The notes beneath the pieces are model-generated. The model made no database searches, was not told the DNA's origin, and was given only the letters and a program-made list of their open reading frames with translations. The translations under genes and the position numbers were made by a program. A DNA stretch of 64,000 nt from a virus, in IMG/VR virus record IMGVR_UViG_3300027736_001324, positions 62,001 to 126,000 of that record, one strand, 5' to 3'. How positions within the stretch are numbered: the first letter of the stretch is position 1; every line of letters starts with the position of its first letter. Shown one piece after another: positions 13,844 to 38,639 of the stretch.

Positions 13844-13851
13844 CTAAATAC
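13844..13851 (+). promoter_or_regulatory. Late-type promoter motif CTAAATAC
   Basis: Lies 14 nt upstream of the ATG at 13866, with a strong ribosome-binding site AGGAG at 13856-13860 between. It heads the long overlapping glycan gene train. Confidence 0.55.
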
Positions 13852-13865
13852 TCATAGGAGTACTC

Positions 13866-15707: not shown

Positions 15708-16039
15708 CCGAAGAAGATTATATTATTATTTGGGAAGCACCTAAATTAATACCGCCGGAGTATAGATTATATTATGATGACAAGGGTAAAGTAATTTGCT
15801 ATTCAGGAGATAAATCGGTAGAGGGCAAGTACATTGTTATTGATGCACAAACTTTTGTTGAAGCAAGACCTGATCTAGTGGTTATCGATGAAAAACTATC
15901 CCGTGCTAGACCAAACGCAATGGTAAGTAAATTGATGCCTGACGATAGTGAAGGGGTCACTTGTCATCCAGAAGATATGAGTATAATAGTTGATGATGCC
16001 AATCACATTAAATGGAAATTAAATATATATGAACTCTAA
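15704..16039 (+). CDS. Hypothetical protein, 111 aa
   Basis: The start ATG overlaps the previous stop (ATGA). The protein begins MTEEDYIIIWEAPKLIPPEYRLYYD and contains KYIVIDAQTFVEARPDLVVID and a HPEDMSIIVDD segment. It is small, acidic and beta-rich, with no membrane helix. It lies between two glycosyltransferase-like genes and overlaps the next by 11 nt. I recall similar short proteins in T4-like phages of aquatic bacteria, with no function known to me. Confidence 0.65.
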   Translation: MTEEDYIIIWEAPKLIPPEYRLYYDDKGKVICYSGDKSVEGKYIVIDAQTFVEARPDLVVIDEKLSRARPNAMVSKLMPDDSEGVTCHPEDMSIIVDDANHIKWKLNIYEL

Positions 16040-21036: not shown

Positions 21037-21052
21037 CGTAACTGAAAGTAAT

Positions 21053-21850: not shown

Positions 21851-22724
21851 ATTAATAACAAACGGTGATAGTTGGACTTTTGGTAGTGAAATAGCTGATC
21901 CAAAATTAGTGAGTAAATATATAGACAAAAAACATGTTACGGAATTTGATCATTTTCCAGAAAATGATTCTTACAGAATTACAAAAATTTGGCCCACATT
22001 CATGAGTAAACTTGTGGATTGTGAGGTAATTAATTTATCCTGGCCTGCTGATGATAACGGATCTATCCTTAGGCGAACTATAAATTATATAACCAATACA
22101 TATATTGCAAATAATATTCCAATGAATGATTTATTTGTAATAATTGGATGGAGTAGCCCTGAACGTAATTCATTCTGGTATAAGGATGAATCTATGACAA
22201 GGCCATTTAGATTATGGCCGCAGAATAACCATTTTGATGCAAAGCCCCAAGAAAAGTTTTGGGATTTATATACTAGATACTTATGGAACGCTGAAGAATA
22301 CATGCCCAGGTATGTATTAGATGTATTACAATTTCAAAATTTTTGTAAGGCTCATGATATTAAATGGATGTGCTTTAATAGCTTTTATCAAACCCCTAAT
22401 AGTAATATTGAAGATTGGAATGACTTAGATGTTTCCGCAGAATTAAAAAATTTACAAAATAAACTCTCCGGGTATCAATATCAATCTACAACTGATATGT
22501 TACGCCGGTATGATCAAATAGATTATCAAACACTTTGGAAAACAATTGATCCTATTCGTTTTTATAAGAAAGATCAGCCTTGTAATACTTTTAAGAGTTA
22601 TATTGAAAACGTTGAACCTAAAATTGAACCGGTGTTCAATGGGTGGCATCCTAGTCCTGCTTCACATGAAATGTGGGCATACGAATTAGTAAATTATATT
22701 ACAACTAATAATTTAATAAAATGA
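21840..22724 (+). CDS. SGNH-hydrolase-like protein 2
   Basis: 294 residues with the start taken at the ATG at 21840, because that gives MTFKLITNGDSWTFGSE, matching the family N-terminus; an upstream in-frame ATG at 21780 would add 20 residues inside the previous gene. Block-I is NGDSWTFG, the block-II-like segment is LSWPADDNGSILRR, and the C-terminal GWHPSPASHEMWAYEL provides a His near residue 278. It is a paralogue of the preceding gene. It ends 15 nt from the convergent lipoprotein gene; no clear terminator lies between them. An esterase or O-acyl role is inferred. Confidence 0.6.
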   Translation: MTFKLITNGDSWTFGSEIADPKLVSKYIDKKHVTEFDHFPENDSYRITKIWPTFMSKLVDCEVINLSWPADDNGSILRRTINYITNTYIANNIPMNDLFVIIGWSSPERNSFWYKDESMTRPFRLWPQNNHFDAKPQEKFWDLYTRYLWNAEEYMPRYVLDVLQFQNFCKAHDIKWMCFNSFYQTPNSNIEDWNDLDVSAELKNLQNKLSGYQYQSTTDMLRRYDQIDYQTLWKTIDPIRFYKKDQPCNTFKSYIENVEPKIEPVFNGWHPSPASHEMWAYELVNYITTNNLIK

Positions 22725-22739
22725 AGCATTATTGTGTAA

Positions 22740-24041
22740 TTATTTGAACTTGACATTCATCGAACAGGCGCCTGCATTTGACCAACAACCGCCGGTGTAG
22801 GCAACAAACGCTCCAGAAGTAGTGGGTTTAATTTGTGCCGAATATGGCTTTAACGTAACGCTAGGGTTATAAAAAGTATGTATAACACTGGCAGTAACTG
22901 TATCAGTTGAGTATTTAATAATAGCCCATTCTACTCCTTCTATTGGTACTCCTGCCCACCCGTCAGTAACGTAGAAATAAAAATACCCATTATCGTATAC
23001 AACATCTAGCGCGGTGCTATATCTAGTGCCATGAGAAGTTGATAATGGCATGATAAATTTTTTAATAGTTGACCAATCAAAACCTCCTTTTTTGTCCCCC
23101 TTGACCCAAATCGTAAATGACTCTTTAGACAAAATCAAATCCAATCGACCATCAATTGGAATTACCATGAGGTTCCACATTATATTTAAATCTGGCATTG
23201 AAGAAGATTTTGGAATTATTTTGGTATCTTGTTTAAATGTACCGTCGCCATTCCCCAACAAAACTGCCACACTATCAACTCCGCTATTAGAATCGGGGAA
23301 AATAGTATTACCAAAAACATTAATAGTTACTATATCAATATTTCCGTCACCGTTTATATCGGCTGCTGCTGCTTGGTGAGCGTATATGTTAAATGGAACT
23401 TCTACTCGTTTGTACGTATTGTCTTTTTGGCTTAAAAAAATAATTTGATTACTACTCTTATAATTTATTAATTCGGACATAGAAAATCCAAAATTATAGA
23501 AATCATTGTCAACCCCACTACATGAAATATAAACATCAGGTTTACCGTCATTGTTGAAATCCGCGGTCATAGAATAACTTGCTGATATACAAGTTGCCCT
23601 ATCTGAGTTCGTCTTTAATAATTCGTTTGTTCTATCTCGCCACTTTCCATTAATATCCTGACTAAGAAAATAAGCCACCCCTGGCGCATCAGGTAAATTT
23701 TCAATACCGTACTTATTGGTAGCCCGCATAGATGAAACGAAAGCTGAATATTTCCCTTCTTGAAAAAAATCCCCAAATGTAACAGACCTTTCATTTGAAT
23801 CTAATTCGTCGGAATATACTTTTGGTATTCCTAAATTACGTACTCCGGGCATTTGAGTTTGATCAAAATTAATTGAGTTTTTATTTTCGTAAGAAGTACC
23901 AAATACAGCAAACGGTACTATTTTGGCAGGTATATTAGCTGGCGCAGTAGTATTACTAATAGAACCGCCCCCGCCCCCACCCCCACACGCAACTAATGCA
24001 AAAATGGAATATGCTATTGCTGTATACTTGATATAGTTCAT
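22740..24041 (-). CDS. FG-GAP/VCBS-repeat outer-membrane-type lipoprotein
   Basis: 433 residues on the minus strand. The N-terminus MNYIKYTAIAYSIFALVACGG is a lipoprotein signal with lipobox LVAC (Cys19), followed by seven Gly, a style common in betaproteobacterial lipoproteins. Two calcium-binding FG-GAP/VCBS loops are clear: DFNNDGKPD (161-169) and DINGDGNID (228-236). Such proteins are surface-anchored beta-propellers, often involved in binding. It is one of only two minus-strand genes in the window and splits an otherwise continuous plus-strand glycan operon, so it looks like an acquired bacterial gene. A consensus sigma-70 promoter lies at 24068-24096 on the same strand. Confidence 0.8.
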   Translation of the reverse strand: MNYIKYTAIAYSIFALVACGGGGGGGSISNTTAPANIPAKIVPFAVFGTSYENKNSINFDQTQMPGVRNLGIPKVYSDELDSNERSVTFGDFFQEGKYSAFVSSMRATNKYGIENLPDAPGVAYFLSQDINGKWRDRTNELLKTNSDRATCISASYSMTADFNNDGKPDVYISCSGVDNDFYNFGFSMSELINYKSSNQIIFLSQKDNTYKRVEVPFNIYAHQAAAADINGDGNIDIVTINVFGNTIFPDSNSGVDSVAVLLGNGDGTFKQDTKIIPKSSSMPDLNIMWNLMVIPIDGRLDLILSKESFTIWVKGDKKGGFDWSTIKKFIMPLSTSHGTRYSTALDVVYDNGYFYFYVTDGWAGVPIEGVEWAIIKYSTDTVTASVIHTFYNPSVTLKPYSAQIKPTTSGAFVAYTGGCWSNAGACSMNVKFK

Positions 24042-24067
24042 ACGAATTTCACTATGTTAAATAACGT

Positions 24068-24096
24068 ATTATACTGTATTTCTGCAATAAAGTCAA
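24068..24096 (-). promoter_or_regulatory. Sigma-70 promoter for the lipoprotein gene
   Basis: On the minus strand, TTGACT (24096-24091) and TATAAT (24073-24068) are separated by exactly 17 nt. The -10 lies 26 nt before the lipoprotein start codon. This would let the host polymerase express the gene without phage factors. Confidence 0.7.
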
Positions 24097-24113
24097 GTGT
24101 CTCGGGTTGCACA

Positions 24114-24121
24114 CTAAATAA
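24114..24121 (+). promoter_or_regulatory. Late-type promoter motif CTAAATAA
   Basis: Plus-strand late-like core 4 nt before the ATG at 24126, just past the inserted minus-strand gene. It could restart plus-strand transcription of the glycan operon. The short distance to the ATG weakens the call. Confidence 0.35.
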
Positions 24122-24125
24122 TACT

Positions 24126-24905
24126 ATGAAAATTGCAGTATGTTTTTGGGGACAAATAAGAACCGGTATACATTCGCATCCGAGTATATTATCTTATTTT
24201 GATGGATTATTGGGCAATATAGATTTTTTTACACACACATGGGATACGGAAACAATTTCTTATTGTGAAATAAATGAAAATCCCATGCTTCCAGATTATC
24301 AGTCATTAAAAGAAAAAATATATAATGACTTGTCAACCTTTCAAATTGAAGTGCCAAAGGAAAAATTGAATAATTTTTTAAATATATATCAGCCAAAAAG
24401 ATTTAAAATTGACAATCCACTCAATTTTAAATTTAGTTTACCGGCGCATTATAGAAGCAGATATGAAGTCAATTTGCTGAAACAAGATTATGAAAAAAAT
24501 AATAATTTTGAGTATGATGTAGTTATTAGTATGCGCCCAGACCTTATATTTAATTCTTCTACTAAATTAAGTGCTGATTTAAATAAAGTAAATTTAAATG
24601 GTACTAATATTTACAATCGACACCATACTGATTTAGAAAACAAAGAAGAATTGATTGAAAGTTTATTTATTATAGGAAATTCAAAAAACATGGATTTGTT
24701 TTCCAGCTTTAAAACTTGCGATACAAACACGGGGGAAGATACACAACGATTGGATTATAAATATTCAACCAGTCGAGGATTAAATTTGAAAAGAATAATT
24801 AACTATGACTTTAGGGTGTTTCGATATTATAATAAATTTATGTTTGATATGGGAATATCATTTGATCAAATGATACAAAATTTTTATCTAGGTAAAATAA
24901 TATGA
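24126..24905 (+). CDS. FSGxxRT-family glycosyltransferase-like protein, copy 4
   Basis: 259 residues with the start at the ATG at 24126, giving MKIAVCFWGQIRTGIHSHPS; an upstream in-frame ATG would add 24 residues with no family match and would run into the promoter region. Motifs: FFTHTWDTE near residue 39 and YDVVISMRPDLIF near 134-146. Trp replaces Ser in the xSG motif (FWG), unlike the other copies. It overlaps the next gene by 4 nt. It belongs to the same paralogue set as the 18547-21036 genes, from which the lipoprotein gene separates it. Confidence 0.65.
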   Translation: MKIAVCFWGQIRTGIHSHPSILSYFDGLLGNIDFFTHTWDTETISYCEINENPMLPDYQSLKEKIYNDLSTFQIEVPKEKLNNFLNIYQPKRFKIDNPLNFKFSLPAHYRSRYEVNLLKQDYEKNNNFEYDVVISMRPDLIFNSSTKLSADLNKVNLNGTNIYNRHHTDLENKEELIESLFIIGNSKNMDLFSSFKTCDTNTGEDTQRLDYKYSTSRGLNLKRIINYDFRVFRYYNKFMFDMGISFDQMIQNFYLGKII

Positions 24906-25729
24906 GAATTGCAGTATGTTTTAGTGGTATGGTTAGGACTGCCAACTATGTTACCCCCAATCTATTAAATTATTTTGGAGATTTACTTCCTAATATTGAT
25001 TTTTTTATGCATACATGGGATGTAACACAACATAAACAATACACTCAGGGTGCAATGGGAGTGCTATCACACAACTACAGACAATGTCCAATGGAACCTA
25101 GTTATCCAATAGTATGTACGATTACAAATGACTATAAAAATTTTAAAAAAATAAAAATTGAATCATATTCAGTTCACTGTCAGTCGTATGTTCGTTTTCC
25201 ACTGTGGTATTCATGGGCCAAAAGTATAGAGTTAGCAAAAGAATATGAAAAAGAATATAATTTTACATATGATGTAGTATTAAAAATGAGACCGGAAATG
25301 ATTTTTCCTGCAAAAAGTACACTGCAACAGGAAATAGATAATTTTTTAATTAATCCTGAAATATTTTATGTTATGGGAGGCGATGACACCCGTTTAAATG
25401 ATGTATATTTTTTATCATCTTCACTAAACATGTCTACTGCTACTAACATAATACATAACACAACCCATTGGAAAAACAATGAATTTAATATGCATCTTTT
25501 AAGTAATAATATTAAATATTCACAAGTTTATAGACCAGCATATGCTATATACAGAGAAGAATGTGTTGGAGTTTCTCCAATGGATTGGTTAGGATGTCAT
25601 GTAGTTGAAACGTATTATTACTCTCCAAAAGAAACATTTGAGATATATTGCAGACAACAAAATTTTTTAACTAAATTTGTAGAACTATACGAATTTTTAA
25701 TGAAAAAAACAAAAAATGAAATTAATTAA
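24902..25729 (+). CDS. FSGxxRT-family glycosyltransferase-like protein, copy 5
   Basis: 275 residues beginning MRIAVCFSGMVRTANYVTPN, with FFMHTWDVTQ near residue 39 and YDVVLKMRPEMIF in the middle, where Glu replaces the Asp of RxD. It overlaps the previous gene by 4 nt and the methyltransferase by 14 nt. The C-terminal ~60 residues (SPMDWLGCHVVETYYY onward) are aromatic-rich and not obviously shared with other copies. Same inferred role in glycan assembly. Confidence 0.65.
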   Translation: MRIAVCFSGMVRTANYVTPNLLNYFGDLLPNIDFFMHTWDVTQHKQYTQGAMGVLSHNYRQCPMEPSYPIVCTITNDYKNFKKIKIESYSVHCQSYVRFPLWYSWAKSIELAKEYEKEYNFTYDVVLKMRPEMIFPAKSTLQQEIDNFLINPEIFYVMGGDDTRLNDVYFLSSSLNMSTATNIIHNTTHWKNNEFNMHLLSNNIKYSQVYRPAYAIYREECVGVSPMDWLGCHVVETYYYSPKETFEIYCRQQNFLTKFVELYEFLMKKTKNEIN

Positions 25730-26855
25730 CAGGAACACTGATGTAATCACTAATAGTGCAAATCTTGAAGATTTACATGCTGTCACGGATGTTCCTATAT
25801 TGATGAGTTGTACAGCAGAAAAAGAATCAACTGATATTAAGAAAGATTTAATTTGGCAAATAAGTAAAGACTCCGGGATCATACAATTAAAAAATCTCAT
25901 CCCATTGAATGTGCTATATTCCGTGCCTCATAGCGGCACAACAGGTGGAATGTGGTTACAACATCATCAAGAATTTTCTAAATTCTTAAGTAAATTCAAC
26001 CCTACCTCAGTGTTAGAAATTGGCGGAGCACATGGTATATTGGCTACTGATTATTTGAAAAATAATATGATTCCCTGGACTATAATTGAACCTAATCCCT
26101 GCCCAATAGATAAGTGTCTGGCTAAATTTATTAAAAGATTTTTTGATGATAAGTTTTCTGTTAACGAAATTAACGAAAAAATTGACACAATAGTACATAG
26201 TCATGTGTTTGAACATGTTTATGACCCGACGGAATTTATGCAAAACATTTCAAATATAATGCATAACGGTAATAAATTAATATTTACCTTGCCCAATCTA
26301 CAAATTATGTTAGAAAACAAATATACTAACTGTATAAATTTTGAACATACTATTTTCTTGTCTGAACCGTACATAGAATACTTATTATCAAAATTTGGGT
26401 TTCGGGTCATAGAAAAAACATACTTTAGCAATCATAGCATTTTTTATTCAACTGTCAGAGATGATACGGTTGCCCCGTTTGAATTAGATCCCAATCTGTA
26501 TGAACAGAACAAACAACTGTACTTGGACTATGTAAAATATTATGAGGATCTTATAATAGAATTAAATAATAAATCAAAGGATACTACTCTTCCCATTTAT
26601 TTGTTTGGGGCACATGTGTTCTCGCAATATTTGTTAACATTAGGATTGGATAGCACTAAAATTAATAGTATCTTGGATAATGATCCAAAGAAACACGGCA
26701 AGCGTTTATATGGCACTGGTTTGAAAATTCAATCACCTAGTGTACTAAGCAGCGTAGAACCAATGATTGTTATTTTAAAAGCAGGGTTTTATAATGAAGA
26801 AATTAAACAAGATATATTGAAAAACATAAATCCAAATATAATATTTTGGGAATAA
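25716..26855 (+). CDS. SAM-dependent C-methyltransferase-like protein
   Basis: 379 residues. A SAM-binding motif I VLEIGGAHGILA begins near residue 99, and HSHVFEHVYDP near 157-167 is typical of class-I methyltransferases that act on deoxysugars. The C-terminal ~110 residues (YLFGAHVFSQYLL, ILDNDPKKHGKRLYG) match the Rossmann-like C-terminal domain of the NDP-sugar C-methyltransferase family. The N-terminal zinc-binding Cys cluster usual in that family is not evident, which may indicate a diverged substrate. It overlaps the previous gene by 14 nt and is followed by a cupin, consistent with nucleotide-sugar tailoring. Confidence 0.75.
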   Translation: MKLINRNTDVITNSANLEDLHAVTDVPILMSCTAEKESTDIKKDLIWQISKDSGIIQLKNLIPLNVLYSVPHSGTTGGMWLQHHQEFSKFLSKFNPTSVLEIGGAHGILATDYLKNNMIPWTIIEPNPCPIDKCLAKFIKRFFDDKFSVNEINEKIDTIVHSHVFEHVYDPTEFMQNISNIMHNGNKLIFTLPNLQIMLENKYTNCINFEHTIFLSEPYIEYLLSKFGFRVIEKTYFSNHSIFYSTVRDDTVAPFELDPNLYEQNKQLYLDYVKYYEDLIIELNNKSKDTTLPIYLFGAHVFSQYLLTLGLDSTKINSILDNDPKKHGKRLYGTGLKIQSPSVLSSVEPMIVILKAGFYNEEIKQDILKNINPNIIFWE

Positions 26856-26857
26856 AG

Positions 26858-27310
26858 ATGATCACAAAAGATAAAAAGTTAGTTAAAAAACACTGGGGAC
26901 AGGAAGAATGGTTTGCAGATGGAGTAGCTACCCCATTTGCATTGAAACGTATATTGTTCTTAGCTGGGAACAGAACAAGTCTACAAGTGCATCAATATAA
27001 GTTTGAAACAACTTTTGTATTGTCTGGCACTGGCAAATTATATAAGTCTAAAGAACCATTGGATATAGAAAATTTCCTACATGTAGGAATGACCTCTAAG
27101 CAAGTTGAAGAATATGAAGCAACGTTTGATGTACTAGATTTGCATGAGGGTGTTTTATTCGACCTCAGCCCAGGATACGTTCATCGTGTTGTGGCTACTA
27201 CCGACTTAACTTTTATCGAAGCTAGCACTTGTGAATTGGATGATGTATTTCGTTTACAAGATGATGGTGGAAGAACACACGGGCGCATAAGCTACGAACA
27301 TGAAAATTAA
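26858..27310 (+). CDS. Cupin-fold sugar-phosphate isomerase-like protein
   Basis: 150 residues from ATG at 26858, 2 nt after the methyltransferase stop; a TTG at 26846 would overlap it. The core shows the cupin signature: SLQVHQYKFETTFVLSGTGKLY, then a second strand set with LFDLSPGYVHRV. The two His residues and the Glu/Lys around HQYKFE would form the metal site. This resembles mannose-6-phosphate-isomerase-type cupins. It overlaps the nucleotidyltransferase gene by 11 nt, consistent with a role in making or binding the activated sugar. Confidence 0.7.
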   Translation: MITKDKKLVKKHWGQEEWFADGVATPFALKRILFLAGNRTSLQVHQYKFETTFVLSGTGKLYKSKEPLDIENFLHVGMTSKQVEEYEATFDVLDLHEGVLFDLSPGYVHRVVATTDLTFIEASTCELDDVFRLQDDGGRTHGRISYEHEN

Positions 27311-28829
27311 TACAGTAATTATACCTACTGCAGGTACAGGTAGTAGAATGGGTAACTATACAAAGAATCTCAACAAAGCATTATTGCCCTATAAAAATAA
27401 ACCAGTGATATCACATATCATTGACAGTTTCCCCCAAGACACAAAATTTATTCTACCAGTTGGTTACTTAGCAGATCAAATCAAAGACTTCTGTAAAATA
27501 GCATATGCTGATAGAGATATTGAATTTGTTCAGATAGATGATTATCTTAGTAGCAAATCAGGCACTTCATATACATTGCGACATTGTAGAGACAAAGTAA
27601 ACGCACCGTTTTGGTATGTGCCGTGTGATACTTATTTTAATGAATCAGTTGTTGACAAAGTAAACGAAAGTAATTGTTACTTTGTAAAAAAAGTTCCAGA
27701 GAAAGACAGCTATCTCTATACTATGTTTGATGTAGATACCAACAAAAATATAACTGAGATAACATTTAAAAAACACACCCCAGAATCATATGAAGCCTTT
27801 ACTGGGTTAATGTACATACATGATTATGTAGAATTCTTTGATAGTTTGGAAACAATCAATTCAACTGAATTAATTTATTCCATACAGTTAGGTGACAAAG
27901 TAGCTAAGTTGGACACTTGGCAAGACTTTGGAGATCCAGTCAACTATCAAACTGAATTGGGGAAAAGTCAAAAGTTTGACTTTAGTAAAAAAGATGAACT
28001 AACCTATATCTGTAACAATCGTGTAGTCAAATGGTGGATAGATGATGCTACCCCAAAAAAGAAATATATTAAGACATTAAAAAATCCCTCTGTATTTCCT
28101 GCTAACTGTCAACACATTGGCAACTTCATGGCTTACGATTACTTTGATGGCCAAACACTATATGAGTATAATAACCCAGTAGCATTTACTTCATATCTTA
28201 ATTGGCTAAAAGATGAAGTTTGGTTGCCAGTTGATGCGGATATTACCAGTGCTGCAACTGAATTCTATAAAAACAAAACACTAGCACGAGTTAATAAGTT
28301 TTTAGAAAAGTACCCAGACCTCAAACAAATTAACTTTATTGATGGTATAAAAGTTAATGATTATAGTTACTACTTGAATAAGATTGATTGGGACTATTTA
28401 AGCACTACCACATTACCAGGGTTTGTGCATGGGGATTTACATTTTGATAATACTGTTATCAATGATGAGGGTAAATTTAAAGTGATAGATTGGAGACATG
28501 AATTTGCTAATATAGTAGAGTATGGGGATATCTATTATGACCTAGCTAAACTAGCAGGTGGATTTATAATCAACTATGCTAACATCAAAGAACATAACTT
28601 CAATATTGAAATAGATAATGATAATGTCACACTAGCTATCCCTAGTGTAGACCATGTTAATGTTTATCAACGTCAACTTAAAGAATTCGTAATAAGTCAG
28701 GGGTACGATTACAAAAAAGTACAAACGCTAATTCCAATTATATATTGGAATATGAGTCCATTACATACTGCGCCATTTGATGTATTCTTATGGTACTTGG
28801 GTATTAAATTGTTCCAAGAATTAGAATGA
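27300..28829 (+). CDS. Fused NTP-transferase / choline-kinase-like phosphotransferase
   Basis: 509 residues with two domains. Residues 1 to about 235 form a MobA/GlmU-like nucleotidyltransferase: IIPTAGTGSRMG (nucleotide loop), LNKALLPYKNKPVISHI and YVPCDTYF. Residues from about 250 to 509 form an aminoglycoside/choline-kinase-like domain with FVHGDLHFDNTVIN (catalytic HGDxxxxN) and VIDWRHEF (metal-binding Asp). The combination resembles a LicC/LicA-type pairing fused in one chain: phosphorylate a small alcohol or sugar, then activate it with a nucleotide. The substrate is unknown. It overlaps both neighbours (11 nt and 4 nt). Confidence 0.85.
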   Translation: MKINTVIIPTAGTGSRMGNYTKNLNKALLPYKNKPVISHIIDSFPQDTKFILPVGYLADQIKDFCKIAYADRDIEFVQIDDYLSSKSGTSYTLRHCRDKVNAPFWYVPCDTYFNESVVDKVNESNCYFVKKVPEKDSYLYTMFDVDTNKNITEITFKKHTPESYEAFTGLMYIHDYVEFFDSLETINSTELIYSIQLGDKVAKLDTWQDFGDPVNYQTELGKSQKFDFSKKDELTYICNNRVVKWWIDDATPKKKYIKTLKNPSVFPANCQHIGNFMAYDYFDGQTLYEYNNPVAFTSYLNWLKDEVWLPVDADITSAATEFYKNKTLARVNKFLEKYPDLKQINFIDGIKVNDYSYYLNKIDWDYLSTTTLPGFVHGDLHFDNTVINDEGKFKVIDWRHEFANIVEYGDIYYDLAKLAGGFIINYANIKEHNFNIEIDNDNVTLAIPSVDHVNVYQRQLKEFVISQGYDYKKVQTLIPIIYWNMSPLHTAPFDVFLWYLGIKLFQELE

Positions 28830-29524
28830 AACAATTTTATAGTCTAAGTCAATATCCTGGCAAAACCGGAGAAACTTACTATCGTAAGTTTTTTAATTTA
28901 AAGAATTTGCCACACTCTTACAATGCATTAAAATGCGAAAATATAGTTGATAGTGTTACTGAATTAAAAAATATTAAAGCTAGTGGGTTCAGTGTCAGTA
29001 TGCCCTACAAGGCATCAGTCATACCTTTACTTGATGAAGTGGATAATTTAGTTACACAATTCAATAGTTGTAACACAGTAGTGAACGTCGACGGAAAGTA
29101 TATTGGTTACAATGCTGATTACTATGGGGCAATACATGTACTAAAAACTATCCTAGAACATGAACCAATTAACATATTGGGCAACGGTGCAATGGGCAAT
29201 ATGTTTAAAAAAATACTAGGTTCTAGGGCTAACATCTACAGTCGTTCATTGGGCAATTGGGACCAAATACAATCATTATCTGGAACTATAATAAACTGTA
29301 CTAGTTTAGGTACCTCTACTAAGGATAGTCCCTTCATTAAGTTGCCAAATATAAGCCATGTGATTGACTTGGCTATGAATGACAATGATTTAAAAAAACA
29401 AACCATCTCATCTGATATTAAATATATAGGCGGAAAAGAGTTTTACCAGCAGCAATTCAAAAAACAATTTGAAATTTACACCGGTATAACATTAAGCCAA
29501 TCAGAACTTGAAGATGATAATTAA
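28826..29524 (+). CDS. Shikimate-dehydrogenase-like (AroE-like) oxidoreductase
   Basis: 232 residues, shorter than typical AroE (~270). The substrate-binding half keeps FYSLSQYPGKTGETYY, GFSVSMPYK (with the Lys) and CNTVVNVDGKYIGYNAD. The NAD(P)-binding half has INILGNGAMGNMFKKIL and NCTSLGTSTKDSP. The motifs are those of shikimate or quinate dehydrogenases. In this sugar-modification operon it may act on a shikimate-like or ulosonic-acid-like polyol rather than serve the aromatic pathway; that is inference. It overlaps the upstream gene by 4 nt and the next by 11 nt. Confidence 0.8.
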   Translation: MKQFYSLSQYPGKTGETYYRKFFNLKNLPHSYNALKCENIVDSVTELKNIKASGFSVSMPYKASVIPLLDEVDNLVTQFNSCNTVVNVDGKYIGYNADYYGAIHVLKTILEHEPINILGNGAMGNMFKKILGSRANIYSRSLGNWDQIQSLSGTIINCTSLGTSTKDSPFIKLPNISHVIDLAMNDNDLKKQTISSDIKYIGGKEFYQQQFKKQFEIYTGITLSQSELEDDN

Positions 29525-29999
29525 TAAATTAGTTTTAGACGTTGACGGAGTACTTAACACCGGGCATATTTTATATAGCAGTCAGGGTAAGATGTATAAA
29601 GTCTTTGGTCCACACGACAAAGATGGATTCAAAATAATAAAAAAATATCTAAATGATATTACCTTTATCACAGCAGATGTGACTGGCTGGGATATAACCT
29701 ACGCCCGAATAGTAAACGATTGGAAGTATGATCCTTCACAATTAATATTGGTTACAGAAGAAGATCGTATGAGATGGTTTGAAAAGAATTGTGATTTTGA
29801 AACTACAGCATATATAGCAGACGGATACAATGATGCCCCTATACTAGATAGAGTTAAAGTTGGCATTGCACCCAAATCAGCAAGAATAGAAGCAAGATCA
29901 GCAGCAATATATGTAACACCTTCAAAAGCAGGACAAGGTGCTGTGTTAGATGCTTGCTTATACTTAGAAAGATTAATTAATGGACTTGAAGAAATTTAA
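29514..29999 (+). CDS. KdsC-like HAD phosphatase
   Basis: 161 residues from ATG at 29514; a TTG at 29508 is an alternative. The HAD motif I is LVLDVDGVLNTG. FITADVTGW stands where motif II (S/T) is expected. YIADGYNDAPIL is motif IV. The length and the small single-domain layout match KDO-8-phosphate phosphatases (KdsC) and N-acylneuraminate-9-phosphate phosphatases. It probably dephosphorylates the product of the adjacent GatZ-like aldolase. It overlaps its upstream neighbour by 11 nt and the aldolase by 20 nt. Confidence 0.8.
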   Translation: MIINKLVLDVDGVLNTGHILYSSQGKMYKVFGPHDKDGFKIIKKYLNDITFITADVTGWDITYARIVNDWKYDPSQLILVTEEDRMRWFEKNCDFETTAYIADGYNDAPILDRVKVGIAPKSARIEARSAAIYVTPSKAGQGAVLDACLYLERLINGLEEI

Positions 30000-30996
30000 A
30001 TTGGGCGTGGGCCCTATGAGTCCAGAAGTAGTTGATATTTGTTTGGAATACAGCAAGGTACATAATTTTCCAATTATGATTATTGCTAGTAGAAATCAAG
30101 TTGATGCTAATAATGGATATTCATTTACCACTGAGAAATTAGTAGATTTTGTCAAATCTAATACAAACTATGATCCTGAAAGAATACTTATATGCAGAGA
30201 TCATTGCGGACCATACTACGGTGATGTTGACACTGGCTTATCAGTAGAGGATGCACTAAAGAATTGTATCAACACAATTGATTCTGACGTTAAGAATGGA
30301 TTTAATTTGATACATGTGGATATCAGCAGAGTAGCTAAAGAAGAAAGATACACAATAGCACACGAAATTATCAATTACATTTTGAAATTGAATCCCAATA
30401 TTATGTTAGAATTTGGTAGTGAGGACAATCTTAGCGTAGAAGAAAACAACAATCAAATACATTATGATGTTGAGTTTAGTAGACGCTATCTAAATCAGAT
30501 TAAATTTGTTGTTGGTCGTACAGGTAGTCTCACTAAACATAAACAAGTGGGTCATTTTGATGTGGAAGATAATATCAAACTAGCAGAGGTTATACACAAG
30601 CATGGATTCTTATTTAAAGAACATAATGCTGATTACTTAACTGAACAAGATATTGTATTAAGAAAACAAGCCGGAGTAGATTCGTTAAATATTGCACCAC
30701 AATTAGGAGTGGTACATACTAATGTACTTGTTAAGTTAGGTAAAGAATTTGAGGATGAGTATAATACATTTAAGAAATCTGTAATTGAAAAAGAAGTATG
30801 GAAGAAATGGATTACTCCTGAGATAACAGATGACGAAACTAAGTTATCAGTAAGCGGACATTATTTCTTAAACACAGTTGAAGCCAAACAGTTGTTAGAA
30901 AAAATTGATATAGCAAAGTTTAAAAATGTTTTGAAAACAGAGATATTTGAAGTACTTGATATATATAGAAAAGGACTTGGCAATGAGCATACTTAA
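29980..30996 (+). CDS. GatZ/KbaZ-like class II aldolase-family protein
   Basis: 338 residues. The N-terminal region has GVGPMSPEVVDICLEYSKVH and IIASRNQVDANNGYSF, close to the NQV(N/D)xxGGY motif of tagatose-bisphosphate aldolase subunit GatZ/KbaZ. It is followed by ILICRDHCGPYYGD and NLIHVDISR, a TIM-barrel pattern with metal-binding His/Asp. This family either chaperones GatY or acts itself as an aldolase. No GatY-like partner is seen in the window. Next to a KdsC-like phosphatase it suggests synthesis of an unusual higher-carbon or ketose-derived sugar. It overlaps the next small ORF by 14 nt. Confidence 0.75.
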   Translation: MDLKKFKLGVGPMSPEVVDICLEYSKVHNFPIMIIASRNQVDANNGYSFTTEKLVDFVKSNTNYDPERILICRDHCGPYYGDVDTGLSVEDALKNCINTIDSDVKNGFNLIHVDISRVAKEERYTIAHEIINYILKLNPNIMLEFGSEDNLSVEENNNQIHYDVEFSRRYLNQIKFVVGRTGSLTKHKQVGHFDVEDNIKLAEVIHKHGFLFKEHNADYLTEQDIVLRKQAGVDSLNIAPQLGVVHTNVLVKLGKEFEDEYNTFKKSVIEKEVWKKWITPEITDDETKLSVSGHYFLNTVEAKQLLEKIDIAKFKNVLKTEIFEVLDIYRKGLGNEHT

Positions 30997-31108
30997 AAAA
31001 ATTAAATACTTCATTGTAGAACGATTGTTTGGTAAAATTACCAGAGAATTGCGCTATAGAAAAAGATTAAAAGAATTACGCAAACGAGACCCGTTTATTT
31101 ACAAATGA
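30983..31108 (+). CDS. 41-residue strongly basic protein
   Basis: ATG at 30983 lies inside the end of the aldolase-like gene, and the stop TGA at 31106-31108 overlaps the ATG of the carbamoyltransferase. The product is MSILKKIKYFIVERLFGKIT followed by an Arg/Lys-rich helix (RELRYRKRLKELRKRDP). It has an amphipathic, highly basic look. Precise overlaps at both ends argue it is translated. It could be a membrane-surface anchor or regulatory peptide of the operon; no family is recognised. Confidence 0.6.
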   Translation: MSILKKIKYFIVERLFGKITRELRYRKRLKELRKRDPFIYK

Positions 31109-32586
31109 ACTATATAGGTATAAGTGCCGGTTTTCATGACGCTGCAATCAGCGTAGTTGATGACCATGGCAACATCTTGTTTGCTGGACATAGTGAACGC
31201 TATAGTAAGAATAAGCATGACAAAGATGTATGTGAAGAATTATTAACGGATGCATTAAAGCACACTAATTCATCATACTTAGAGTATCATTACTATGAAC
31301 GCCCGTGGTTAAAGTCATTACGTCAATTACGCACTGGTGAAGGCTTTACTTGGCCGTCATGGGAAAAGATATTAGGTAGTACATATCATCAGATGGGTAC
31401 ACCTAAAATACATACACATAGTCATCATCTATGTCATGCGGCTGCAGGATTTCAAACAAGTCCATTTGAAGATGCCACTGTTGTTGTGATTGATGCTATA
31501 GGAGAATTTGATACTATCACTATCTGGGATGCTTGGTACGATTTCTCAACGGGCAAAGCACAATACAAAAAACTATGGAGTCTTAAATATCCAGATAGCA
31601 TTGGATTATTCTATTCAGCAATGACTGAACGAGTTGGACTACGCCCATTAGATGAAGAATACATTCTAATGGGTATGGCTGCGTACGGAGAACCTAATCA
31701 TGTTGCTGATATGATTAATGAGTTAGTAGATAAAAAAGATATATTAACCTTCAAGCAAAATCTACACACTGGGGTTAGTAAAGATTTCTTAAAAGATGCT
31801 GATCCATTGGACATTGCTAGCAGTAGTCAACACTTAGTTGAGTACATGATTACTAGAGTAATGAGTAAAGCTAGAACATTGGGTCGTAGTAGAAATCTAG
31901 TATACGGCGGCGGGGTAGCATTGAATTGTTTAGCGAACAGACTATTAGGGAACTTCTATGAAAATATTTGGATTATGCCTAACCCTGGCGATGCGGGTAA
32001 TAGTCTCGGTGCAGCATGTCTTGGGCACAGTCGTAAAACTAATTGGACTGATGCTTTTCTTGGTCATAACATTCCTGGTAAGTATCCTGTTAACGGTTTA
32101 CTTGATGTGTTACTTACTGATAGGATTGTTGGTGTCGCTTCAGGACGAGCAGAGTTCGGCCCGAGAGCATTGGGAAATAGAAGTCTACTCGCAGACCCAA
32201 GAGGCGATGAAATTAAAGATAAAGTAAATGAGATTAAACGTAGACAAAAGTTTAGACCATTTGCTCCTGTCATATTAGAAGAATATGCTCATCAGTATTT
32301 TGAAATGCCTAAGCACTGGCATGATAGTAGATATATGCAGGTTATTAGTAAATGTAAATATCCTGAGAAATTCCCTGCTATTGCACATCACGATTGGACT
32401 AGTAGAGTACAAACTGTACCAAAAGATGGGTCTGGCATCAGAGAGTTATTAGAAAAATGGTATGTAATGACCGAATGCCCAATGTTATTGAACACAAGTT
32501 TAAACATACGTGGCGAGCCAATGGTCAACGACCATAGTGATGCTGATAGGTTTGAAAAACTATATGGAGTTAAGGTTTTGTCATAA
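31105..32586 (+). CDS. Carbamoyltransferase (NodU/CmcH family)
   Basis: 493 residues. The N-terminal Kae1-like domain begins MNYIGISAGFHDAAISVVDD and has the metal-binding HSHHLCHAAAGF near residues 104-115. VIDAIGEFDT and GGGVALNCLANRLL follow. The C-terminal domain carries GRAEFGPRALGNRSLLADPR and KFRPFAPVILEE, diagnostic of O-carbamoyltransferases that use carbamoyl phosphate and ATP to carbamoylate sugar or antibiotic hydroxyls. The start overlaps the 41-residue ORF (ATGA). It is placed at the end of the small-molecule enzyme series, so it likely adds a final carbamoyl decoration. Confidence 0.9.
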   Translation: MNYIGISAGFHDAAISVVDDHGNILFAGHSERYSKNKHDKDVCEELLTDALKHTNSSYLEYHYYERPWLKSLRQLRTGEGFTWPSWEKILGSTYHQMGTPKIHTHSHHLCHAAAGFQTSPFEDATVVVIDAIGEFDTITIWDAWYDFSTGKAQYKKLWSLKYPDSIGLFYSAMTERVGLRPLDEEYILMGMAAYGEPNHVADMINELVDKKDILTFKQNLHTGVSKDFLKDADPLDIASSSQHLVEYMITRVMSKARTLGRSRNLVYGGGVALNCLANRLLGNFYENIWIMPNPGDAGNSLGAACLGHSRKTNWTDAFLGHNIPGKYPVNGLLDVLLTDRIVGVASGRAEFGPRALGNRSLLADPRGDEIKDKVNEIKRRQKFRPFAPVILEEYAHQYFEMPKHWHDSRYMQVISKCKYPEKFPAIAHHDWTSRVQTVPKDGSGIRELLEKWYVMTECPMLLNTSLNIRGEPMVNDHSDADRFEKLYGVKVLS

Positions 32587-32594: not shown

Positions 32595-35500
32595 ATGCTA
32601 AGAGATGTATTTTATTACGGCGCCAAACCCAACGTTCACCCAAGAGAAAAATTTGCAACTTCACTAGAAGATGCTAGACAACAATCTACCACAGAACATT
32701 TTTGGATAATAAACGAATATTGTGATTATCGTAATTTTGATTGGGACTTTGATTTTGAATTTCTACCCGACGAAGATGTATGGGCAGAAGAACATAACAA
32801 CGTATGGCCTAGTATACATCAAAAAGATAGCGGCACATGGCTATGCACATCAAACCCAACCGAGATAATTATATATCGGGCTGACGTTGAACCAGTAAAA
32901 CGTAAAAACGAAACACACAAAAATTGGGTACTACTAGATTTAGTAGATGAAACTAAATTTGATTTTAGTTGGCATCCAGACCCAACTGACCCTCCCTATA
33001 TCTATACATGGGGATGTAAATATTTCCCAGTAGAATTGCAAGCCTGCTTAGAATATCATGTTCCGGGTGCAACAACCGTGAAGTACATGGATAGTATTGT
33101 AGAGTTGTTGCCACATACAGATCGATGGGTTGAAGTACAGAATATTGACAAATCATTATTTGATATGTCATGGAGACCTAGTCCATTGGATCCTCCTATG
33201 AATTATGTTTGGGGTAACAAACACATTGATGGCAAATTGAAATCTACACTAGAGTATCATATGCCCGGTGCGACTGATACAAAGTATATGTCTTATCCTT
33301 TGCCAGTATTACCTGAGTGGGATAGATGGCAAATCCATGACGAGATAGATAAAACTAGTTTTGATTTTAGTTGGAGACCAGATCCAAGAGAGCCGGCTTA
33401 TATATACCAATGGGGTAATAAACATTATAGTAGTGAATTATCTCCTACTATTTCCTATACTGCCCCGGGAGCAACTGAAGTTAAACATATGTCACAAGAT
33501 GTTAATCTAGCAGTAAGTAAAAATTGGGTTTTCTATCACGCAGTAAATAAAACTAAATTTGATTTGACATGGAGACCTGATCCAACTAGCCCACCTTATA
33601 TCTATGCATGGGGAAATAAATATGATCCAGCAGAAGTTAAACCTACGCTAGAATATATTGTACCCGGGGCAACCGAATACAAGTATATGGACGTTGTTGA
33701 TTTAGAGCCAGAATGGGATAGATGGAAAGAACATATTTTTGTTGATCATTCTAAATTTGATTTTAGTTGGAGACCAGATCCTAATCTACATGAGCCACCT
33801 TATATCTATGTGTGGGGCAACAAGTATGATCCGGCAGAAGTTAAGCCTACGCTAGAATATCATGTGCCCGGAGCAACTGAATATAAGTATATGAACATTG
33901 TTGATTTAGAGCCAGAATGGGATAGATGGCAAGAAATTCAACCAGTAGATAAAAGTAAGTTTGATTTTAGTTGGAGACCTGATCCTAACTTACACGAACC
34001 ACCTTATATCTATGTGTGGGGTAATAAACATATATCAGCAGAACTTAAATCAACAATAGAATATCATGTGCCGGGCGCTACAGAACGCAAGTACATGAGT
34101 CAGTTAGTAGAAGTGTTGCCTGAATTCAATCGGTGGAAAGAAATACAATCTATTGATAGAAACAAGTTTGATTTAACATGGAGACCAGATCCAAGAGAAC
34201 CAGCATATATTTATGTATGGGGAAATAAACATATACCGGGTGAACTGAAATCAACAATAGAATATCAATGTGACGGGGCTACTGAATATAAGTATATGGA
34301 TGAACTTGTTGAAGTATTACCTGAACAAGAACACTGGAAAGTTACGCAAGAAGTAAAAAACTTTGACTTTACCTGGAGACCTGATCCACGTGAACCTGCA
34401 TACATTTACACTTGGGGTAATAAACATATAGCAGCAGAACTTAAACCCACAATAGAGTATTATTGTGAGGGTGCAACAGAACACAAGTATATGGGTGAAG
34501 TTGATGTTGTTCCTGAAATGGATCGTTGGAATATTGTACAAGAAATTTCTAACACATTTGATTTGTCATGGAGACCTGACCCACGTGAACCTGCATATAT
34601 CTATACATGGGGTAACAAATATATACCCGGAGATATAAAACCTACACTTGAATATCATTGTGAGGGTGCTACCGAACGAAAGTATATGGGTGATGTTGAT
34701 GTATTGCCTGAGTTAGACAAGTGGAAAGAAATTCAATCAATAGATAAAACTAAGTTTGATATGTCGTGGAGACCAGACCCGCGTGAACCGGCATACATTT
34801 ACGTGTGGGGTAATAAACACGTTGAAGCTGAATTAAAGTCAACTATTGAATATCATTGTCCTGATGCAACCGAACGCAAGTACATGGGTGATGTTGAAGT
34901 ATTACCTGAATTAGATAAATGGAATATTGTACAACAAGTAGAAAACTTTGATTTTACATGGAGACCAGATCCAAGAGAACCTGCATATATCTACACATGG
35001 GGTAACAAGCATGTTAGTGCTGAATTGAAACCGACACTTGAATATCATTGTCCTGATGCAACTGAACGAAAATACATGGGTGATGTTGAAGTGTTACCGG
35101 AGTTTGACAAATGGAAAGAAATACAGCCAATAGATAACACTAAGTTTGATATGTCGTGGAGACCTGATCCACGTGAACCTGCATATATTTACACATGGGG
35201 TAATAAACATGTTAGTGCTGAGTTTAAGCCAACACTTGAATATTATTGTGAAGGTGCAACAGAGCGCAAGTACATGGGTGATGTTGAAGTTTTACCTGAG
35301 TTTGACAAATGGAATATTGTACAACAAGTAGAAAACTTTGATTTTACATGGAGACCAGATCCAAGAGAACCTGCATATATTTATGTATGGGGTAACAAAT
35401 GGATACAAGGAGATTTAAAATCTACACTTGAGTATCACTGTGAAGGGGCAACTGAATTCAAGTATATGAAAGAATTATTAGATGTTGCACCAATACACGA

Positions 35501-38500
35501 CCACTGGAACATTATACAAAAAGTAGAAAACTTTGATTTTAGTTGGAGACCTGATCCACGTGAACCTGCATATATTTATATATGGGGTAATAAACATATA
35601 GCAGGTGAATTAAAACCAACACTTGAATTTCATTGCCAAGGTGCTATTGAACGTAAATTTATGGGTACTGCTGAAGTAGCACCAGAATGGGATAGATATC
35701 AAATATTAATACCAGTAGATAAAACTAGCTTTGACTTCACGTGGAGACCAGATCCCAGAGAACCTGAATTTATATATGTATGGGGTAATCAATCTAACAT
35801 TGCAGAAAAAGAACCTACTATTGAATATCATTGTCCTGGCGCTACTGAACGAAAATACATGAATGACAATGTGGCTAAGACATTACCTGTAGTTGAAAAT
35901 TGGAAGATATTAATTTCAGTAGAAAACTTTGATTTTAGTTGGAGACCTGATCCTAATAGCCCTCCCTACATCTATATATTTGGTAATCAATGGCATGATG
36001 CTATGACAGAGCCTACATTAGAATATCATGTAGAGGGCGCTGCCGAAAAGAAATATGTCACAGAGATTGTTCCTACTGCAACAAAGACTCAGGAGTATTG
36101 GAAAACTCTTATTCCAATCGAATCATTTGATTATAGCTGGAGACCCAATCCACATTCAACCCCTTACATATATGTATTTGGTAATCAATGGCATGATAGC
36201 ATAACTGAACCCACAATAGAATATCATTGTCCTGGCGCAACGGATAAGAAATACATTACTGATGTAATTGCATTAGCCAAATCAACAGCAACAGACAATC
36301 ATTGGAAACGATTAATACCGATTGAATCATTTGATTATAGCTGGAGACCTGATCCTAATAGTCCTCCTTATATCTATGTGTTTGGTAATAAATGGAACGA
36401 TGCTGCAACTGAACCATCGGTTGAATATTATGTTGACGGCGCAACTGAACACAAATATGTATCTGACCCTGTTGCTATTCCTAAAGCAGAGATACAATAC
36501 TGGGCTATCAATAATAATGATGACTTAGAAACATTTGATTTTACATGGAGACCCAATCCACATAGTCCATCACAAATATATCAATGGCAAGATAATGGAC
36601 CAAGGTATACGGTTCCTGGCGCAACAGATGTGGTGTTAATGGAACACACTGGAAAGACAAAGAAAGTAATCGTTAATCGTTACAAGATTAAAACAACATT
36701 GGAAGATTTAATTAACGAACATCCGGAAGAAGTATTCTGGGCTATCAACCCTGATTTGAATTATGATAAGTTTGACTTTAGTTGGCGACCCAACGAAGAA
36801 AACTTTAGACATATAAATGTATTTGGCAATGAGTATAGCAAAAATACACAAACGTATTATATTAATAGTCCAATGTATATGCTTGGAAACAAAGAATATA
36901 ATTATGTAGAGGATCAATCAGTGCAGGTTGATAGTAATCTAAGTATGTTCTTTATTGATAAAAGTAATAAGGAAAGTACAAGTAGATTTAATGAATTAAA
37001 ATTACGCTATCCACAATTACAAAAGACAAGATATCTTAATAGTTGGGTAGATACAATCAATCGTTGTATTACTAAATCAGAAACTAAATTGTTCTGGGTA
37101 CTGAATAGTGAATTAGATTATAGTGAGTTTGATTTTGACTTCTATCCTAGCCCATGGCAAATGAATATGATACATGTGTTTGGAACACAATGGAGTCATT
37201 GGGGTAACACCTACATGGTTAATAAAGAAACCTTTGCAGAAGATACAAAGTATGTAAAGATTATTGAACATCTATCTAACTTGAATTTTGTAAAACAAAG
37301 AAAAGCAAAAGCAACAAATGTATTGTATGACATTGTTTATATTGACCATGGTAATAAAGATTTGTCTGATATTAATAACTTAATCATCAAGTATGAAAAG
37401 AGTTATTTGACTACTTTTAGAAACATGTTAGATAAACTTTCAGTAAAGAAAGAACATTATGTTTGGGTAGCTAGTACTATATGTGATTACACAAACTTTG
37501 ACTTTACCTATATATGTGATCCGTTTGCCAAAGAGCAATTACATGTATTTCCAAGTGATAAGCAGAAGTTTGGTGATACGTTTTTAATTGATGTGAATAG
37601 ATTACGTGAATTAGTAGATGATATGACTACATTGGAAGACTACAATAAGATTAACTTTAATCAAAGTCAAAGAGTAAAAAGATTAGAAGCACCTGTGATT
37701 ATTACTGAGGAAGATACTCATGTATCTAGTATTAACACGGAGTTTGATTTTCCGTATGCTGTATTCACCACAGTTGATAATAAAGACATTAAAGTATTGG
37801 ATAATGAACCAATGAACATATGGAGTTATGAGACTAAAAATATCATAATAACCAGTGAAGGTGGAACAAGAATTATTGTTCCCAAAGAAGCAAGAAAATA
37901 TATTAAAAACGAATTATATGATTATCCATATATAATGCCCAATGACAAATTAGCAAAGTCTAATCCGTTGGACATTGTTTTCTTTAGTAACGGTGAAGCC
38001 TGTGCTGAGGCAAATTATAAACATTTGCTTAAACTAACTGAAAAGCTACCCAACAATGTATTAAGAATTGACGGTATAAATGGTCGTGTAAAAAGCCAAC
38101 ATGCTGCTGCTGAAAGTAGTGCTACCCCATGGTACTTCTTAGTCAATGCTAAACTGAAAGTAGATTCAAAGTTTAATTTTAATTGGCAACCGGACAGATT
38201 GCAGATACCTAAGCATTATATTTTCCATGCCACCAACCCTGTAAACGGATTAGTATATGGTCACCAAGCTATCGTTGCTAACAACAAGAAACTTACCTTA
38301 GCAAACTTTGGAACTGGATTAGACTTTACTATGGACAGTGAGCATGAAGTTGTTGCTATTAATAGCGGCATTGGTATGTATAATAGTAGTGAGTGGGATA
38401 CATGGCGTACTGCATTCCGCGAATGTATTAAACTTAAATTATCCAAAACTATGGAAAATAAAGAACGTCTAGATGTATGGTTAAACGTTGGCCTTGGTGA

Positions 38501-38639
38501 GTTTGCCCAATATAGTATACAAGGTGCCAAAGATGCAGTAGAATACTATTATGAAGTTGAAAGTGACTTTAAAAAATTGCGTTTAAGTTATGATTGGGAT
38601 TGGTTAAGAACATTCTATGAGACTAAATACAAACTATGA
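32595..38639 (+). CDS. 2,014-aa tandem-repeat protein with glycosyltransferase-like C-terminal domain
   Basis: The ATG at 32595 starts MLRDVFYYGAKPNVHPREKF. Residues 36-83 are a degenerate first unit (FWIINEYCDYRNFDWDF). Residues 122-1313 contain 18 tandem units of 63-70 residues with consensus FDFSWRPDPREPAYIYxWGN, then KHxxxELKPTxEYHCxGATE and RKYMGDVEVLPExDKWxxxQ. Residues 1314 to about 1560 hold four longer degenerate units (FDFxxxPxP...HVFG). The last ~200 residues (SQHAAAESSATPWYF, NPVNGLVYGHQA, WDTWRTAFRECIKL) match the C-terminal part of the 16029 product. There is no signal peptide or membrane segment. It lies in the glycan operon; function unknown. It may be a multivalent binding scaffold fused to a transferase-like domain. 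Confidence 0.8.
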   Translation: MLRDVFYYGAKPNVHPREKFATSLEDARQQSTTEHFWIINEYCDYRNFDWDFDFEFLPDEDVWAEEHNNVWPSIHQKDSGTWLCTSNPTEIIIYRADVEPVKRKNETHKNWVLLDLVDETKFDFSWHPDPTDPPYIYTWGCKYFPVELQACLEYHVPGATTVKYMDSIVELLPHTDRWVEVQNIDKSLFDMSWRPSPLDPPMNYVWGNKHIDGKLKSTLEYHMPGATDTKYMSYPLPVLPEWDRWQIHDEIDKTSFDFSWRPDPREPAYIYQWGNKHYSSELSPTISYTAPGATEVKHMSQDVNLAVSKNWVFYHAVNKTKFDLTWRPDPTSPPYIYAWGNKYDPAEVKPTLEYIVPGATEYKYMDVVDLEPEWDRWKEHIFVDHSKFDFSWRPDPNLHEPPYIYVWGNKYDPAEVKPTLEYHVPGATEYKYMNIVDLEPEWDRWQEIQPVDKSKFDFSWRPDPNLHEPPYIYVWGNKHISAELKSTIEYHVPGATERKYMSQLVEVLPEFNRWKEIQSIDRNKFDLTWRPDPREPAYIYVWGNKHIPGELKSTIEYQCDGATEYKYMDELVEVLPEQEHWKVTQEVKNFDFTWRPDPREPAYIYTWGNKHIAAELKPTIEYYCEGATEHKYMGEVDVVPEMDRWNIVQEISNTFDLSWRPDPREPAYIYTWGNKYIPGDIKPTLEYHCEGATERKYMGDVDVLPELDKWKEIQSIDKTKFDMSWRPDPREPAYIYVWGNKHVEAELKSTIEYHCPDATERKYMGDVEVLPELDKWNIVQQVENFDFTWRPDPREPAYIYTWGNKHVSAELKPTLEYHCPDATERKYMGDVEVLPEFDKWKEIQPIDNTKFDMSWRPDPREPAYIYTWGNKHVSAEFKPTLEYYCEGATERKYMGDVEVLPEFDKWNIVQQVENFDFTWRPDPREPAYIYVWGNKWIQGDLKSTLEYHCEGATEFKYMKELLDVAPIHDHWNIIQKVENFDFSWRPDPREPAYIYIWGNKHIAGELKPTLEFHCQGAIERKFMGTAEVAPEWDRYQILIPVDKTSFDFTWRPDPREPEFIYVWGNQSNIAEKEPTIEYHCPGATERKYMNDNVAKTLPVVENWKILISVENFDFSWRPDPNSPPYIYIFGNQWHDAMTEPTLEYHVEGAAEKKYVTEIVPTATKTQEYWKTLIPIESFDYSWRPNPHSTPYIYVFGNQWHDSITEPTIEYHCPGATDKKYITDVIALAKSTATDNHWKRLIPIESFDYSWRPDPNSPPYIYVFGNKWNDAATEPSVEYYVDGATEHKYVSDPVAIPKAEIQYWAINNNDDLETFDFTWRPNPHSPSQIYQWQDNGPRYTVPGATDVVLMEHTGKTKKVIVNRYKIKTTLEDLINEHPEEVFWAINPDLNYDKFDFSWRPNEENFRHINVFGNEYSKNTQTYYINSPMYMLGNKEYNYVEDQSVQVDSNLSMFFIDKSNKESTSRFNELKLRYPQLQKTRYLNSWVDTINRCITKSETKLFWVLNSELDYSEFDFDFYPSPWQMNMIHVFGTQWSHWGNTYMVNKETFAEDTKYVKIIEHLSNLNFVKQRKAKATNVLYDIVYIDHGNKDLSDINNLIIKYEKSYLTTFRNMLDKLSVKKEHYVWVASTICDYTNFDFTYICDPFAKEQLHVFPSDKQKFGDTFLIDVNRLRELVDDMTTLEDYNKINFNQSQRVKRLEAPVIITEEDTHVSSINTEFDFPYAVFTTVDNKDIKVLDNEPMNIWSYETKNIIITSEGGTRIIVPKEARKYIKNELYDYPYIMPNDKLAKSNPLDIVFFSNGEACAEANYKHLLKLTEKLPNNVLRIDGINGRVKSQHAAAESSATPWYFLVNAKLKVDSKFNFNWQPDRLQIPKHYIFHATNPVNGLVYGHQAIVANNKKLTLANFGTGLDFTMDSEHEVVAINSGIGMYNSSEWDTWRTAFRECIKLKLSKTMENKERLDVWLNVGLGEFAQYSIQGAKDAVEYYYEVESDFKKLRLSYDWDWLRTFYETKYKL
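32958..36533 (+). repeat. 18 tandem ~199-bp coding repeats (FDFSWRPDP units)
   Basis: Each unit begins with an FD(F/M/L/Y)(S/T)W(R/H)Px core and spans about 66 codons. Central units (roughly 33.96-35.5 kb) are the most similar; outer units diverge. A higher-order two-unit period is visible: 34917-34990 and 35307-35380 are identical over 74 bp, 390 bp apart, matching alternation of KEIQxID-type and NIVQQVEN-type linkers. Confidence 0.9.

Follow-up and report, generated by a model that had tools for sequence, protein, structure and literature searches.

Why should a large phage carry, at the end of a cluster of sugar genes, a 2,014-residue protein built mainly of tandem repeats? The question is raised by a gene here named REP, which lies in a 64,000-nucleotide stretch (the window; positions 62001-126000 of the 263,709-bp virus record IMGVR_UViG_3300027736_001324). 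Its product is apparently a catalytically dead glycosyltransferase. The carboxyl terminus is modelled as a series of GT-A-type domains, a derivation that is well supported, and the repeated unit is best read, from profile comparisons, as the second half of a GT-A domain whose nucleotide-binding first half is missing. The function that we infer for such a protein, tentatively and with a little less than even confidence, is that of a multivalent scaffold or binder, without catalysis, serving the glycan pathway of the phage.

The gene and its parts, all on the plus strand, are:

32595..38639, plus: REP, giant apparent pseudo-glycosyltransferase gene, 2,014 residues (open frame; about 75 homologues with matching architecture)
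32595..32930, plus: N-terminal mini GT-A-like domain, residues 1-112 (weak fold match; hhalign)
32958..36533, plus: array of 18 candidate half-GT-A units, residues 122-1313 (unit hidden Markov model; homology to GT-A second half)
36534..36932, plus: two degenerate units, residues 1314-1446, the second of which (gt1b) has a short helical first half
36936..37274, plus: gt2, GT-A-like, residues 1448-1560, NSE at the DxD position (fold match)
37308..37604, plus: gt3, GT-A-like, residues 1572-1670, SSI, SSV or STI at the DxD position (hhalign to gt2)
37956..38636, plus: C-terminal GT-A-like domain, residues 1788-2014, FAK or NAK at the DxD position (fold match; alignment with gene 16029)

The array is regular. 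Units of 64-69 residues begin at residues 122, 189, 256 and so on to 1246, and the unit hidden Markov model recovers all 18 (E 5.5e-38 to 9.6e-31); it also detects degenerate units (E 1e-7 to 0.04), and no further copies were found with it outside REP in the 263,709-bp record. A preliminary description, made from the letters alone, had placed 18 consecutive units of about 66 residues at about 122-1313, with degenerate units beside them. Count and coordinates were correct, and the degenerate units proved to be two after the array, beginning at 1314 and 1393, plus looser echoes at 1512, 1635, and 1860. The motifs that it took to be strictly kept are largely so. Among 16 aligned units the invariant features are F-D, W, P.P, Y, G, A, and K. 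Thus the tryptophan holds, but the Asp of Pro-Asp-Pro changes to S or N; in Gly-Asn-Lys, K becomes Q and, once, N becomes C; and the M of the GATxxKYM segment varies.

What does the unit derive from? AlphaFold models, built with family alignments, are confident for residues 1-455 (predicted local distance difference test score, pLDDT, 91) and for residues 1246-2014 (pLDDT 86). In the fold search, models without a clear match usually score Z 7-8, so that two matches in the C-terminal part stand above background: residues 1786-1933 match the GT-A glycosyltransferase B4GALNT1 (Z 11.7 over 141 residues, root-mean-square deviation 2.9), followed by ThuS, WrtF, SunS, and others; and residues 1444-1580 match GT-A-fold nucleotidyltransferases (MobA and related proteins; Z about 10). 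The N-terminal 104 residues match the GT-A superfamily weakly (Z 5.3). A PDB fold search with the N-terminus plus units returned weak GT-A matches to residues 1-104 only, and no direct match for a single unit.

Profile-profile alignment with hhalign links the pieces to one another. The unit aligns with gt1b at 98.3% and with the second half of gt2 at 93.5%; gt2 aligns with gt3 at 98.4%; and the N-terminus aligns with gt1b, gt2, and gt3 at 90-95%. Column-shuffled controls were far lower for the pairs unit-gt1b, unit-gt2, unit-gtLast, and gt2-gt3. Alignments of the units with the N-terminus and with gt3 were not significant. It is because the matches of the unit to gt1b and gt2 exceed their shuffled controls that the unit is read as a second GT-A half. 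The earlier proposal of a folded module holds and is sharpened: the unit is best seen as half of a GT-A domain, not as a binding module that stands by itself.

A second question is whether REP can transfer sugar. The C-terminal domain had been noted as shared with a nearby gene, and that kinship is real (26% identity over residues 2-225 of the smaller protein, E 3e-7):

16029..16979, plus: stand-alone GT-A-like putative glycosyltransferase that retains DxD (as DGD) and is related to the C-terminal domain of REP

The last domain of REP aligns over its full length with this protein and with proteins from Rhodobacter sp. CZR27 and Streptomyces plasmids, at about 25-29% identity; the Streptomyces relatives adjoin annotated glycosyltransferases. 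All of these stand-alone relatives have DGD or DAD after beta4. In REP, 39 of 40 aligned rows show FAK or NAK at this point of the last domain, and the remaining row WGK; the DxD that the relatives keep has been lost there. The other domains read NEF/NEY, NPD/RKN and variants, NSE, and SSI/SSV, and a canonical DxD after beta4 is present in none of the five REP domain positions. The relatives also differ in plan: each has a single domain and no array, whereas REP combines several domains with an array.

The DxD position is the ground on which to weigh REP as an active multi-domain glycosyltransferase or glycan polymerase that uses a non-canonical motif, such as the NSE of gt2. That triplet is kept in 36 of 40 rows, leaving a small chance that REP is active, and the top Foldseek matches to REP are two-domain polymerases, those for chondroitin and heparosan. 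Those alignments, however, span several domains with a root-mean-square deviation above 20 and a low TM-score; the units lack the nucleotide-binding half; and no REP domain carries the canonical motif. An active enzyme is accordingly judged quite unlikely.

Is the array peculiar to this record? Scanning IMG/VR with the unit alignment yielded 196 confirmed stretches, from which 77 distinct loci were retained. Nearly all of these, about 75 IMG/VR contigs, share the architecture of the window REP: a fixed N-terminus of about 122 residues, very conserved and opening MLRDVFYYG.KPN.HPRE; 5 to about 32 units; and a fixed C-terminus of about 600 residues, 52-80% identical to that of the window REP. 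Among 44 non-redundant full-length proteins (5 to 32 units), length follows 727 + 73 x units (r 0.99). Units are gained and lost, as a comparison of two related proteins shows: their registers are offset, with unit 7 of the window REP matching unit 6 of its closest relative (L002) at 98%. The differing unit numbers across about 75 contigs, with units only about 72-79% alike in DNA and the architecture shared, rule out both an assembly artefact and chance. A cellular origin was also considered and set aside. The only GTDB match is the end of a Crocinitomicaceae metagenome contig (L079:7049-10324), in which a secreted Bacteroidota repeat protein is abruptly joined to two REP units, a probable assembly chimera with a phage.

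The preliminary description knew of no named family with this architecture, and none emerged: Pfam, NCBIfam, PADLOC, and PDB contain no family matching REP, PDB sequence searches gave no matches, and the GenBank phages in INPHARED gave none either. The idea of a known anti-phage defence protein was rejected, as the best E value against the PADLOC defence models was 0.16. PHROG matches of the family (P0001) are stretches of 12-36 residues to families of unknown function, and were not used as evidence. Two relatives in BFVD cover the N-terminus and units: A0A6J5L5L5 (E 5.6e-42, 36% identity) and A0A6J5LK21 (E 6.2e-24, 22%). Both come from uncultured Caudovirales phages and were deposited as uncharacterised proteins; they have 1,076 and 804 residues, against 2,014 in REP.

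The surroundings of REP supply the third line of evidence. Its placement in a sugar-gene context, previously suggested, holds true; REP occupies a constant position at the end of an island of such genes:

11620..12870, plus: conserved structural gene, IMC peptidase G2 type, on the far side of the island
12880..31104, plus: swappable sugar-gene island (gene content; no DNA shared with the closest relative)
31105..32586, plus: NodU/TobZ-type carbamoyltransferase (Pfam domains), 8 bases upstream of REP

The carbamoyltransferase product carries Carbam_trans_N (E 4.6e-38) and Carbam_trans_C (E 1.6e-47), beyond the cut-off, and matches TobZ, GdmN, and decarbamoylnovobiocin carbamoyltransferase. Besides the window, about 48 loci have such a gene directly 5' of REP, overlapping it or within about 12 bases. 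Upstream of the carbamoyltransferase, the cassettes alternate: B12 radical SAM genes, a DegT aminotransferase, epimerases, radical SAM arrays, or a pair of shikimate-dehydrogenase-like and GatZ-like genes. The window island encodes a Twitch radical SAM protein, a C-methyltransferase-type enzyme, a nucleotidyltransferase-kinase, shikimate-dehydrogenase-like and GatZ-like proteins, and unknowns. In 11 of 12 contigs tested, REP is preceded by a homologue of the structural gene, at an interval of 11.5 to 30.9 kb (in the window, 19.7 kb).

Comparison with the closest relative shows how mobile this segment is. The two islands have no DNA in common; REP is 80-83% identical and the adjacent carbamoyltransferase 95%; and synonymous divergence is 0.5-1.3 in these two genes, against 0.1-0.2 in the genes just downstream. 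Because the island DNA is unshared and synonymous divergence exceeds that downstream, recombination has exchanged this block. The ratio of nonsynonymous to synonymous substitution rates, dN/dS, is 0.10-0.22, indicating purifying selection overall.

These features bear on the possibility that REP is a virion component (a decoration, fibre, or adhesin) in which repurposed GT-A half-domains bind glycans of the host or the environment. A fibre was also the alternative offered in the preliminary description. Gain and loss of units over the range 5 to about 32, greater divergence of REP than of the carbamoyltransferase, and a structural gene as the boundary of the region would all suit such a role. 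Yet REP sits behind metabolic enzymes, most often adjoining the carbamoyltransferase gene, has no structural PHROG match, and is under purifying selection overall. A place in the virion is thus unlikely, if still to be taken seriously.

The island enzymes suggest another arrangement, in which REP is itself the acceptor and its repeats are modified again and again by radical SAM enzymes, glycosyltransferases, and the carbamoyltransferase. Many radical SAM and sugar enzymes do lie upstream, and each unit offers many conserved W, Y, and K residues. The units, however, are confidently folded beta domains that appear to derive from a GT-A half, and REP is also found in loci with other upstream cassettes. 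We regard this arrangement as improbable.

Alternatively, the island, carbamoyltransferase, and REP together might hypermodify the phage's DNA. Phage carbamoylation of 5-hydroxymethylcytosine is known (PMC8670742), through a carbamoyltransferase of phage type, and in the jumbo-like phage YerA41 thymidine bears a bulky modification that is probably based on sugar (PMC9023294). In the present record, which may be incomplete, the sole thymidylate-synthase-family gene is of the Asn type (LGLPFNIASY), a true thymidylate synthase, and no dCMP (deoxycytidine monophosphate) hydroxymethylase, the Asp-type homologue, was found. This leaves DNA modification as a very improbable role.

Is REP tied to the pathway beside it? 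Among 27 non-redundant loci, the distance of REP C-termini from one another and the gene content of the island are correlated (r 0.27, p 0.008), also given the carbamoyltransferase (p 0.006); among 21 loci, the correlation has p 0.036 with a core ATPase as control and p 0.016 with both controls. Neither the carbamoyltransferase nor the core ATPase correlates with island content. Because the carbamoyltransferase sits between REP and the island, simple linkage predicts the opposite order. The comparison points to REP being matched to the island pathway.

The preferred reading of REP as a scaffold or binder draws these lines together: an apparently dead multi-domain glycosyltransferase, many second-half modules, and an adjoining carbamoyltransferase with interchangeable sugar enzymes. 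The multivalent glycan-binding scaffold first mooted for this gene fits that make-up. In this model, the island enzymes would make a carbamoylated glycan. REP, unable to transfer sugar, would offer many binding sites for the glycan, for its acceptor, or for nucleotide-sugar precursors, and would thereby keep either the growing glycan or the enzymes assembled. Length or avidity would depend on the number of units, and the glycan might be destined for a virion protein, the host surface, or elsewhere. In a more specific version, which we think distinctly doubtful, the array would serve as a glycan ruler or assembly line, its 5 to about 32 half-glycosyltransferase modules holding the growing carbamoylated polymer and co-evolving with the interchangeable pathway.

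Several points weigh against the scaffold. Some REP loci lack the carbamoyltransferase; the correlation with island content is weak (r about 0.25, 21-27 loci, no full-tree control); the kept NSE of gt2 could mark a non-canonical active site; and the scaffold idea leans on general knowledge, by which acceptors bind in the second half of a GT-A domain.

How new is this design? REP shares a fold with the GT-A enzymes B4GALNT1, ThuS/SunS, WrtF, and MobA (Z 10-11.7 for its C-terminal domains) and differs from them in lacking a canonical DxD, in its serial domains and half-domain array, and in sequence (<15% identity). Lysyl hydroxylase LH3, also among the fold matches, has an accessory GT-A-like domain without catalysis beside other modules; LH3, however, is one chain with a hydroxylase domain, whereas REP is a serial array in a phage. 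A lysyl-hydroxylase-like pairing of REP with a 2-oxoglutarate oxygenase gene at 39833 was considered and dropped, as the oxygenase is not in the other loci. T4-like cyanophages (S-SSM7, P-SSM2) carry sugar and lipopolysaccharide clusters with a carbamoyltransferase, and the function of these clusters was left open (PMC3037559); they resemble that described here, but REP was not found in those records. A literature search for phage glycosyltransferases that are giant, repeated, or of the pseudo type turned up no account of such a protein. As far as these searches reach, serial DxD-less GT-A domains joined to a variable half-domain array appear to be undescribed. GT-A is among the commonest enzyme folds, yet this combination seems new, and it offers a way to test what sugar-synthesis clusters do for the large phages that carry them.

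The carriers of REP are, by sequence, one widespread clade of uncultured T4-like jumbo phages. Their TerL proteins are 77-96% identical to one another; TerL is 48-50% identical to those of Sinorhizobium phage Phosso and Pseudomonas phage PA5oct. Of contigs picked by TerL alone, 7 of 11 carry REP, as do all five of those of at least 80 kb, so that REP looks like a core gene of the clade.

Other observations concern the islands. The Twitch-domain radical SAM protein of the window (16973-18550, plus strand) matches NF033640 at 294 bits, and many islands contain radical SAM genes, often several of them. A frequent island family of about 410 residues (P0003; L033:553-1782 and 86 further open reading frames in 43 loci) has no Pfam or NCBIfam match; its members look like glycosyltransferases by the motifs TEKT..PI...PFI and L...GYKTF. 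A 327-residue family (L013:6100-7080 and 15 other loci), likewise without a Pfam or NCBIfam match, has amidinotransferase-like motifs (FDAAN, HLDS, GGCFHC); since it adjoins genes for DegT and B12 radical SAM proteins, the sugar could conceivably be aminocyclitol-like. A 433-residue FG-GAP repeat protein is encoded at 22740-24041 on the minus strand, within an otherwise plus-strand island.

The motif [AC]TAAATA, whose pattern may be late-promoter-like, occurs 27 times on the plus strand of the window (10803-63168), 14 times within 60 bp upstream of gene starts, and a copy precedes the terminase gene. From 14168 up to REP no gene has a copy just upstream, and transcription of the island possibly starts from the copy at 13844.

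Elsewhere in the window, the open reading frame at 229-10800 (plus strand), upstream of the structural genes, encodes 3,523 residues with no clear family (best Pfam E 0.03) and is possibly an adhesin. Downstream of REP, a tmRNA is encoded at 39468-39826 (plus strand; Rfam beta_tmRNA 112 bits, tmRNA_permuted 129 bits), with the tag ANDELFALAA. Its beta type suggests that the host is betaproteobacterial, and together with the porin gene that follows it hints at freshwater Betaproteobacteria. An outer-membrane porin gene at 40651-41535 (plus strand; Porin_4, E 4.9e-23) is common to 11 loci, and is adjoined by a PstS-like phosphate-binding gene at 41620-42636.

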